Assembly: GCF_000337135.1 (NCBI RefSeq)
Contig: NZ_AOIN01000035.1
Location: forward strand, 1-64,000
Direction of reading: 5' to 3'
Source of the DNA: Natrialba chahannaoensis JCM 10990
Lineage (GTDB): Archaea > Halobacteriota > Halobacteria > Halobacteriales > Natrialbaceae
DNA length: 64,000 bases
Below the pieces are notes generated by a model. That model was given only the letters and a program-made list of their open reading frames with translations. It ran no database searches and was not told the origin of the DNA. Shown one piece after another: positions 8,180 through 33,753 of the stretch (position 1 is the stretch's first letter; each line of letters opens with the position of its first letter). Position numbers and translations under genes: made by a program.

Positions 8180-9126
8180 GCGGGGTCACCTCCGAGCTCG
8201 ACGCGGGGGTCGAGGTAGCGGTAGCTCAGGTCGACGAGCAGGTTCGTTACGACGAAGGCGACCGCGGTGAAGAGGGTGATCCCCTGCACGACCGGGTAGT
8301 TGCGCTCGAAGACGGCGTCGACGAGCAGCATGCCGAGTCCGGGGCGCTGGAAGACGATCTCGATCACGACCGCGCCGTTGAGCAGCGCGCCGAGCTGGAC
8401 GCCGAGGATGGTCACGACGGGGACGAGCGCGTTTCGCAGCGCGTGTTTGTAGATGACAATCCGCTCGCGCAGCCCCTTCGAGCGCGCGGTGTCGAGGTAG
8501 CCCTCGTCGAGGACTTCGAGCATTGAACTCCTGACGAGCCGGGTTAGCACGGCGGCCATGCCGGTGCCGAGCGTGATTGCAGGGAGGACGAGCTGGCTGT
8601 AGCTCCCCGCGCCGGCGACCGGGAGGACGCCGAGTGTCAGCGCGAAGACGAGGATTAGCAGGTAGCCGAGCCAGAAGTTCGGCATCGAGACGCCGATCAG
8701 TGCACCGAGTTGGCTCGCGCGGTCGATTGCTGTCCCGCGATGAACGGCGCTCAGGACGCCGGTCGGAATCGCGAGCGCGAGCGCGACGACCACCGAAGCG
8801 GCGGCGAGTTCGAGCGTTAGCGGGAGTGCGTCGAGGATGAGTCCTGTGACGGACGCGTCGCTGTAGTACGAGGTTCCCAGATCCCCGCGCAGCACGTCGG
8901 TGAGCCAGTCACCGTACTGGAGTGGCACCGGCTCGTCCATGCCCTGTTCCGCGCGGAACGCCTCGATTTCGGCCTCGGAGGGTTGGCGGTCGAGTTGCTG
9001 GCTGAGGATCACCTCGGCCGGATCGCCGGGCGTCAGAAAGAGCAACCCGTAGGTGATGATCGAGACGCCAGTGAGCACCACGAGCGATGTGCCGAACCGA
9101 TGGACGAGGTAGGATGCCGTATCCAT
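8176..9126 (-). CDS. dppB: Dipeptide/oligopeptide ABC transporter permease (DppB type)
   Basis: A 316-aa permease with the DppB/OppB layout: an N-terminal helix (about residues 10-30), the periplasmic-side stretch LTPGDPAEV, then five helices. The EAA loop is LVRSSMLEVLDEGYLDTARS, followed by KGL. It begins one base after the stop of dppA and overlaps dppC by 4 nt, so the three genes form one transcript. Substrate class (peptide or nickel) cannot be decided from the permease. Confidence 0.93.
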   Translation of the reverse strand: MDTASYLVHRFGTSLVVLTGVSIITYGLLFLTPGDPAEVILSQQLDRQPSEAEIEAFRAEQGMDEPVPLQYGDWLTDVLRGDLGTSYYSDASVTGLILDALPLTLELAAASVVVALALAIPTGVLSAVHRGTAIDRASQLGALIGVSMPNFWLGYLLILVFALTLGVLPVAGAGSYSQLVLPAITLGTGMAAVLTRLVRSSMLEVLDEGYLDTARSKGLRERIVIYKHALRNALVPVVTILGVQLGALLNGAVVIEIVFQRPGLGMLLVDAVFERNYPVVQGITLFTAVAFVVTNLLVDLSYRYLDPRVELGGDPA

Positions 9127-31134: not shown

Positions 31135-31785
31135 GTGTACGAAGCAACGTTTACGATTAGCGACTCGAGTGCGTACACCGAGCCGACCGACGGCGCAGAC
31201 TGTCGGATCGAACTCTGGTGTAACGAGCACTCGGATCTGCTCTACGTCGCCGGATCGTCGATCGACCCGCTACTCTCGCAGATCCGCACGGACATCGGCA
31301 TCGAGGAGCAACTCCGGCGGGACGGCGAGGCCGTCGTCATCACCAGTTCCTGTCTCAAACGGGAGGAGACGAGGTACATCGAGCGCTACCTTGCGGATCA
31401 CAACTGTCTGTTGTTACCGCCGTTACGATACGAAGACGGGAAGAAACACTGCCGGATTCTCGCGCTCGATTCAAAGAGTCTCACGGCACTGTACGGTGAT
31501 CTGGTCGAGGCCGGCTTCGAGATCGACGTCCGCACCAAACGCGAGATCGGCGCACCCACCCAGTCCTCGCCGTTGCTGACTCTCGACGATGTGTTGCCGG
31601 AACTGACCGCACGACAGCGAGACGTACTGACGCTCGCCGTCGATAGCGGCTATTACGATCTTCCGCGCGAGACCACGACCGCGGAATTGGCGGCCGAACT
31701 CGATGTCAGTCGGCGGACGGCCGAGGATCACCTTCGGCGAGCGGAACGGAAGCTGATTACGTCGCTCGTAGCGTATCTGTACTGA
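31135..31785 (+). CDS. Bacterio-opsin activator-type HTH regulator
   Basis: A 216-aa transcription regulator. The C-terminal HTH_10 domain (about residues 150-212) reads LTARQRDVLTLAVDSGYYDLPRET, then the recognition-helix region TTAELAAELDVSRRTAEDHLRRAE, typical of haloarchaeal Bat homologues. The N-terminal half is an uncharacterised sensing domain with several Cys residues. Start is GTG, supported by the TATA box about 28 nt upstream. Immediately downstream lies the hairpin-bounded mini-element. Targets unknown. Confidence 0.88.
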   Translation: MYEATFTISDSSAYTEPTDGADCRIELWCNEHSDLLYVAGSSIDPLLSQIRTDIGIEEQLRRDGEAVVITSSCLKREETRYIERYLADHNCLLLPPLRYEDGKKHCRILALDSKSLTALYGDLVEAGFEIDVRTKREIGAPTQSSPLLTLDDVLPELTARQRDVLTLAVDSGYYDLPRETTTAELAAELDVSRRTAEDHLRRAERKLITSLVAYLY

Positions 31786-31814
31786 CCGCCCGAGCGATAA
31801 CGTAGTTCACTACT

Positions 31815-32048
31815 TAACCTCCTCCCACGACTAAAGTCGTGGGATTCCCGAAGGGGAGTTCAAGGTTGCGCGTTTCCTCGGTGGTCCAATTCCCTTTCGG
31901 GAGCCACGTCACAGAGCGAAGCTCTGATGCCGTCGAAACGGTGTTTCTCGGCGCGGGAACTCCGGTAGTTCAGGTTACGTCAACCAGTTGAATGGAACTT
32001 ACGGGTTCATCCCACGGCTAAAGCCGTGGGCTTTCTCCTGTCTCTACT
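31815..32048. mobile_element. IS200/IS605-type mini-element (MITE/PATE-like)
   Basis: About 230 bp, bounded by two perfect hairpins with the same TAAA loop: CCCACGAC-TAAA-GTCGTGGG (31824-31843) and CCCACGGC-TAAA-GCCGTGGG (32011-32030). Arms differ at one base pair. These resemble the end hairpins of haloarchaeal IS200/IS605 and IS1341-type elements, including the acttaacctcctccc-like left flank and gggctttctcctgt right flank. Nothing long enough to encode TnpA or TnpB lies inside. Internally there are further hairpins: CAGAGC-gaa-GCTCTG (31912-31926), CCGT-cgaa-ACGG (about 31930-31941) and GAACT-ccggt-AGTTC (31957-31971). I infer a non-autonomous deletion derivative; the exact ends are uncertain by several bases. 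Confidence 0.78.
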
Positions 32049-32103
32049 GTAACACCCGTCCAAACCGGAACATACCGAAGTCGGGGACAGCGAGTGTCGA
32101 TCC

Positions 32104-33567
32104 TCAGAGCAGACCAACTGCCGCGAGGAGGTGTGTCATCGCGGCAATGATCGGAACGAGGATGACAGTCCGCATGACGAACAGGAGCACGAGGTCGCGA
32201 AACCGGATCGGAATATCGTTGAACATATCCATCATCATCGGTGCCGTCGCCGAGAAGAAGATCAACTGTGAGATCGAGAGGACCGCAATGAAGAACCGCG
32301 CCATCGCGTCGGCTTCGGCGACCAGCAACGCGGGGATGAACATCTCGGTGATCCCGATGATCGTCGCGGGGGCGACGACCTCGGCGTCAGGAATGCCGAG
32401 CAACTCGATGACCGGGATGAGTGGCTGGGAAATAACGTCGAACACCGGTGTGTGCTCGGCGACGACGACCGCAGCTAGGCCGATCGAGAGTATCGTCCCG
32501 AGGATGAGCACGGCAAGTTTGAGTCCGTCGACGAACCCACGAACCGACGCCCCAATGATCGAGTCACCCGTTTCGGCCTTCTTGACGGCCTCGGACAGGC
32601 CGAACCGGAAGTAATCGCCGACCGATCCACGGAACGGTGTTTCGGGGTTCGGTTCGGCCACGTACTCCTTTGGCACGTTGCTCAGTGGCGGAATGCGAAC
32701 CAGTATCGCGCTCGAAATGGCGATACAGACGAGATACGCGAGGAAGATGATCGGGAACAACTCGAGTAGGTCAACTGTTGCGGCGACGACTCCGACGAAG
32801 CCGATCGACACCGTCGCGAAACACGTACAGATGATGTAGACGTCCTGTTTGGAGTACTCGCCTCGATCGAAGACGTTTCGCGTGACGTAGAAGCCGACAC
32901 TGTAGGAACCGACCCAGGAGGCAACGCTGTCGAGTGCCGCGCGCCCGGGTATCTTGAACAGCGGTCGCATGATCGGCCGCGCCATCGTGCCGACGAACTC
33001 GAGGCCGCCCAGTTCGACGAAGAGGTTGATGAAAATGGCACCGATCGGAATGATCACCGCGACGCTCAGAATGAGTGTCCCCCAGACGAGTCCGCCGGTT
33101 CCGGGACCGGTCATCCAGTCAGGACCGATTCCGAGGAAGAGAAACGGTGCGAGGACGGCACCGGCGACCCGGAAGAACCAGAACGGCGTGGACGTTTCCC
33201 AGTAGGGCAGCGTCAGCCGTTCGGCGAGGCCGTCGTTGATCGTGAGCATGCCTCGCTTTCGGAACTCTGCAACCGTCGTGAGGATGCCACCGGCCACGAT
33301 GAGGAGCAATGCGTACACACCCGAAAGCGTGGGGAACGACCCGGTGATCCAGTTGATGACGATGTCGAACGGAACCGTCAGCTGTCCGTCCCAGGGGACC
33401 GGGACCAGAAAGAACACGAAGCCAACGAGGAACGCTAGGACGAACTTCGATACTGGTCCCCGCCGAATATCCGTGAGGTTGATGTCGTCGATCGTCTTCG
33501 GTTCGGGTTTCTGTTCGACGCGTTCCGTCTCTTGATCGTCACGAGACCAGATCGTTCCGTTGGGCAT
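32104..33567 (-). CDS. YjiH-family membrane protein with nucleoside-recognition (Gate) domains
   Basis: A 487-aa protein with about eleven hydrophobic segments. The stretches DSVASWVGSYSVGFYVTRNVFDRGEYSKQD and ATIIGITEMFIPALLVA fit the YjiH/SpmA-like Gate-domain family. Such proteins are thought to be transporters, but the substrate is unsettled. The open frame begins at 33612, but the ATG at 33567 (MPNGTIWSRDDQ) is preferred. A TATA-like TGATTTATACC (about 33632-33623) leaves a short leader of about 30 nt. The mini-element lies about 55 nt past its 3' end. Confidence 0.85.
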   Translation of the reverse strand: MPNGTIWSRDDQETERVEQKPEPKTIDDINLTDIRRGPVSKFVLAFLVGFVFFLVPVPWDGQLTVPFDIVINWITGSFPTLSGVYALLLIVAGGILTTVAEFRKRGMLTINDGLAERLTLPYWETSTPFWFFRVAGAVLAPFLFLGIGPDWMTGPGTGGLVWGTLILSVAVIIPIGAIFINLFVELGGLEFVGTMARPIMRPLFKIPGRAALDSVASWVGSYSVGFYVTRNVFDRGEYSKQDVYIICTCFATVSIGFVGVVAATVDLLELFPIIFLAYLVCIAISSAILVRIPPLSNVPKEYVAEPNPETPFRGSVGDYFRFGLSEAVKKAETGDSIIGASVRGFVDGLKLAVLILGTILSIGLAAVVVAEHTPVFDVISQPLIPVIELLGIPDAEVVAPATIIGITEMFIPALLVAEADAMARFFIAVLSISQLIFFSATAPMMMDMFNDIPIRFRDLVLLFVMRTVILVPIIAAMTHLLAAVGLL

Positions 33568-33753
33568 ACGATAGTAGTGTGGTAGCAACCAGCAAGACGA
33601 AGACAGTTCCATAGGGTGGGTGGTATAAATCAGAACGTAACGGACTCACATCTCTTGATTGGAAATAGCAATTGGTGTCCCTGGGCCGCTTACCGACGAT
33701 ATGGGGTCCTCGACAGTTTCGGCGGAACAGATAACGGCGGCGGAAAACGAGGG

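Follow-up and report, generated by a model that had tools for sequence, protein, structure and literature searches.

A hairpin-rich segment between two convergent genes of Natrialba chahannaoensis JCM 10990 raised the question of what kind of element it represents, and whether it still provides a guide RNA that could act in trans. It lies within the 64,000-nucleotide stretch analysed here (the window), between the genes for an HTH_10 regulator (HVO_A0563_N; 31135–31785, plus strand) and a Gate-domain membrane protein (32104–33612, minus strand), both of which converge on it. An initial annotation had assigned positions 31815–32048 to a non-autonomous IS200/IS605-like element with two near-identical end hairpins and neither transposase nor TnpB inside. 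Indeed, the hairpins CCCACGACTAAAGTCGTGGG (31824–31843) and CCCACGGCTAAAGCCGTGGG (32011–32030) are 85% identical over 27 nt and spaced by ~167 bp, and no ORF of the element showed likeness to TnpA or TnpB. Alignment of its termini to the left and right ends of relatives set the limits to 31814–32048 on the minus strand (235 bp), within one base of those proposed, and both the ends and the homology to a full element agreed with the proposed class.

In full-length relatives, tnpB is encoded on the minus strand; this makes the hairpin on the right in the window the left end (LE) and that on the left the right end (RE), and a plus-strand reading was ruled out. Both ends align with those of tnpB-bearing elements. 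In IS608 (ISHp608) from Helicobacter pylori, TTAC serves as target and left cleavage site C_L, AAAG as G_L, GAAT as G_R and TCAA as C_R, the latter pairing with G_R (PMC5934647). The window element exhibited the first three of these motifs. TTAC flanks it at 32049–32052 (minus strand) and is conserved 5′ of the left ends of relatives as well; the left end (32011–32034, minus strand) comprises AAAG (32031–32034) and the hairpin CCCACGGC-TTTA-GCCGTGGG (32011–32030), as assigned from relatives and IS608; and the right end (31823–31847, minus strand) comprises GAAT (31844–31847) and the hairpin CCCACGAC-TTTA-GTCGTGGG, which corresponds to stem 4 of an ωRNA. The 3′ end reads GTTAA (31814–31818, minus strand), where relatives have GTCAA. 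This changes both the right cleavage site and a pseudoknot strand: C_R (31814–31817) is TTAA instead of TCAA. Among 56 right ends surveyed, 50 carried TCAA, and TTAA was found in the window copy alone. The flank GTAGTGAACTACGTTA (31798–31813, minus strand) occupies, by homology, the position of a guide. The element is a non-autonomous IS200/IS605 (IS608-like) palindrome-associated transposable element (PATE), apparently inserted 3′ of TTAC. Its expected empty site, the junction of GGGTGTTAC and GTAGTGAACTACG on the minus strand, was not found via the neighbouring genes across the genus, where relatives retain a membrane protein of just ~53% identity and lack the regulator next to it.

The element might be a live minimal PATE, mobilised by TnpA in trans, with an irrelevant ωRNA remnant. 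The two hairpins are intact, as are G_L, G_R and TTAC, the genome contains two TnpA genes, one of them (at C34) inside an element whose RE likewise ends GGAGGTCAA, and very short PATEs of Haloquadratum appear mobile (PMC3119063). We nevertheless regard a live element as unlikely: it is a single copy in its own genome, the other match being at contig C21 only (77% over 98 bp), and its C_R is shared by no other right end surveyed. Excision of the window copy is probably impaired, given the pairing between C_R and G_R in IS608.

We favour the reading of a decayed copy, on which the interior of the element also bears. The 98 nt at 31814–31911 (minus strand) represent the 3′ portion of an ωRNA scaffold of ~170 nt. 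They are 76–80% identical to the interval from tnpB stop codon to RE in elements that carry tnpB, among them the C21 element of the same genome, and a covariance model trained on other loci only recovered them on the minus strand with 98.2 bits and an E-value of 3.5e-29, demonstrating that the match is not due to chance. The suspected origin of the right end from an ωRNA was thus borne out. Many intact copies scored ~200 bits, compared to 98 for the window copy; Rfam at its gathering score returned nothing in the window and nothing for five related loci over their ωRNA portions. The sequence next to the left end (31912–32010, minus strand) was identified by alignment to the tnpB-less relative L086 as part of a non-coding middle segment common to tnpB-less relatives. 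In a local alignment, the window element matched L086 at 15–155 and then at 423–520, so that ~267 bp, namely the rest of the middle segment and the 5′ part of the ωRNA, are gone at about 31911/31912. MAFFT had placed the block 31912–31967 beside the ωRNA owing to this deletion, a placement corrected by the local alignment. Scaffold columns 1–71 are missing, which removes stem 1, the TTGAC pseudoknot loop, helix 4 and, of stem 2, the 5′ strand. What remains are helices 5–8: helices 5 and 6, a GTGG/CCAC stem and a GAAA-looped TCCC/GGGA hairpin (31881–31907, minus strand), show compensated changes, the likewise covarying helix 7 (31846–31857, minus strand) is one base short, and the right-end hairpin (31823–31844), which covaries in the family, is retained, with the flank in guide position.

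The complete scaffold was examined in an alignment of ~170 nt containing nine tnpB-linked sequences, nine tnpB-less sequences and one from a contig edge. An eight-helix structure, including a pseudoknot between the TTGAC loop and the terminal GTCAA, was paired in 97.4% of cells, with compensated changes at 17 pairs and a covariation score of 0.327 (0.110 in shuffles, ≤0.058 in slid controls); this structure was written by hand from the same sequences, and its pseudoknot varies on one side only. RNAalifold predicted the nested helices independently. In the tnpB-less subset alone, pairing reached 95.7% of cells, compared with a mean of 87.2% and a maximum of 90.0% in shuffles, and compensated changes occurred at 13 pairs, indicating that the structure is maintained without tnpB, with the proviso that kinship among sequences can push pairing and covariation above shuffles. 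The layout agrees with the published ωRNAs of Halobacterium salinarum, with an RE hairpin and a pseudoknot (PMC12558985), and of ISDra2, with stem 1, a pseudoknot and a UUUA-looped stem 4 (PMC10097598).

Most of the tnpB-less relatives (L086, L088–L095, L119, L092, L023) measure ~460–520 bp and share one layout, consisting of LE, a non-coding middle of ~230–290 nt and a complete ωRNA. The middle segment is common to tnpB-less elements of several genera but did not turn up next to any of the tnpB genes examined, which argues for a common lineage of these elements and against separate deletions. For the same two reasons, we discarded the idea that the window copy arose independently from a tnpB element through deletion. 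A survey with the covariance model gave a match at E ≤ 1e-6 in 65 of the 71 genomes sampled from the family, many of these matches being weaker and belonging to RNAs of other TnpB groups. Among 56 loci with stronger covariance matches or fetched earlier, 36 had nothing homologous to TnpB in the 1.9 kb upstream, although contig ends cut four of these 36. The initial annotation had tied its reading to the existence of a full-length relative and of similar copies in related genomes; full-length relatives and many similar copies were found.

The clearest case was Natrarchaeobaculum sulfurireducens AArc1 (G037; L195–L208; plasmid NZ_CP024046), where 13 of 14 strong copies lack tnpB, have complete ωRNA scaffolds and show 13 different 16-nt flanks at the guide position. 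One strong copy contains an open 367-codon tnpB, and several copies are 98–99% identical over 508 bp. For the tnpB-less copy L198 (1128–1688), an exact empty site was found in the sister-strain plasmid pAArc-Mg-01 (L235:736–737). On the element strand it reads CACGCCTTAC joined to TTCTTGAACC, and the flank 3′ of the RE is TTCTTGAACCTTATCT. Insertion 3′ of TTAC without duplication is thereby demonstrated for a tnpB-less member, whose empty site corresponds to TTAC plus guide. We tentatively propose, as a possibility somewhat short of probable, that the intact relatives constitute a dedicated haloarchaeal selfish lineage, consisting of ends and a complete ωRNA and relying on one genomic TnpB (and TnpA) in trans, with the window copy as a dead member. 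On this view, each new insertion would create a new guide re-cutting empty sites. As a separate observation, the LE hairpin of L198 is split by additional sequence, which may be another small insertion.

The search for full copies in the genome of the window, which had been suggested earlier, led to the related element at C21. Its tnpB is an open frame of 367 codons with GVDIG, EDLEGI and RHADLN motifs, two CxxC motifs and a match to the TNB domain, indicating that an apparently intact cognate TnpB is encoded in the same genome. Just upstream of this element, two matches to CRISPR-DR24 repeats were noted (L002:32–74 and 113–142; G000 C21), as if the element had been inserted at or beside a CRISPR array. 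Further ωRNA-like matches in this genome were recorded: tandem matches downstream of one tnpB (G000:C80:8866–8963 and 8969–9115; L164, L007), a match whose TnpB is reduced to a C-terminal remnant (L151; G000 C44:51438–51554) and one without TnpB homology (L160; G000 C38:5122–5241).

With a cognate TnpB at hand, the relic could be imagined to yield a guide-like RNA acting in trans with the C21 protein, as the initial annotation had suggested. Helices 5, 6 and 8, helix 7 minus one base, and the flank at the guide position would fit such a role. Yet stem 1, the pseudoknot loop and a strand of stem 2 are deleted, while the dispensable 5′ region of the ISDra2 ωRNA lies upstream of a core scaffold to which stem 1 and the pseudoknot belong (PMC10097598); moreover, the element's own genome offered no second site matching TTAC and the initial 12 nt of the guide with ≤2 mismatches. 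Since parts of the core scaffold are deleted here, we consider it very unlikely that the window copy yields a working guide RNA, even if binding of its truncated ωRNA to TnpB is conceivable. The C-to-U substitution in the 3′ end was counted against excision alone, because a G–U pair in the pseudoknot would still be possible. The trans-guide idea fits the intact tnpB-less relatives with their complete scaffold, but not the relic, for which a usable guide RNA was not supported. Marginally less likely still is a role of the hairpins as bidirectional terminators, or as an RNA element retained to serve the convergent gene pair: the position between these genes and the high folding potential, correctly noted before (z −4.7 on the plus and −3.6 on the minus strand relative to dinucleotide shuffles), would suit it, but no T-run follows either hairpin, and homology to a mobile family occurring in many contexts explains the sequence.

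The window element is thus, with high probability, a decayed non-autonomous IS608-like PATE derived from a ~480-bp ancestor with a complete ωRNA. Such an ancestor would have comprised a left end, a non-coding middle and the ωRNA with the right end. By analogy to IS608, intact members would be excised as single strands by TnpA supplied in trans and inserted 3′ of TTAC without target duplication. Their ωRNA may use the adjacent 16 nt as a guide, and TnpB encoded elsewhere may then cut resealed or empty TTAC-plus-guide sites, favouring recopying of the element. In the window copy, ~267 bp have been lost, among them stem 1 of the ωRNA, its 3′-end-pairing loop and a strand of stem 2, and C_R has turned from TCAA into TTAA. 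Because of this loss and the altered C_R, it is probably immobile and without guide function.

As such, the relic is unremarkable, and the interest lies with its relatives. Through these it can be tested directly whether a selfish element may carry nothing but a guide RNA as cargo and borrow its nuclease, and one genome holds the material for it: many near-identical tnpB-less copies that differ in their guides, a single cognate TnpB and, as a natural empty site, TTAC plus the 16-nt guide. In bacteria, PATEs and protein-less ωRNA loci, in which a guide RNA or transposon ends occur without a nuclease gene, were reportedly described by Meers (2023) and Altae-Tran (2021); those cases concern different organisms, and IscB is a different nuclease. 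Compared with IS608, the window element has the same TTAC target and C_L, AAAG, GAAT and end hairpins, but lacks tnpA and tnpB and carries TTAA in place of TCAA as C_R. With the ωRNAs of H. salinarum, also termed sotRNAs (PMC12558985), and of ISDra2 (PMC10097598) it shares the RE hairpin and the 3′ end. Stem 1 and the pseudoknot between loop and 3′ end are present in its intact relatives too, whereas the window copy has neither stem 1 nor the pseudoknot loop, nor an adjacent tnpB. The closest counterparts are the PATEs of Haloquadratum walsbyi, transposase-free elements with IS605-type near-terminal palindromes, no target duplication and core deletions (PMC3119063). The window element is likewise transposase-free, with near-terminal IS605-type palindromes and a deleted core. 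PATEs are already known from Haloquadratum, and the window element is a decayed further member. However, haloarchaeal PATEs were described before TnpB guide RNAs were known, and the complete ωRNA of the family's intact members, of which the window copy keeps a deleted remnant, would have been unrecognisable to the 2011 paper. The ωRNA-bearing, tnpB-less haloarchaeal lineage may be new as a variant, and the comparison points to guide-RNA elements among at least some of the PATEs.
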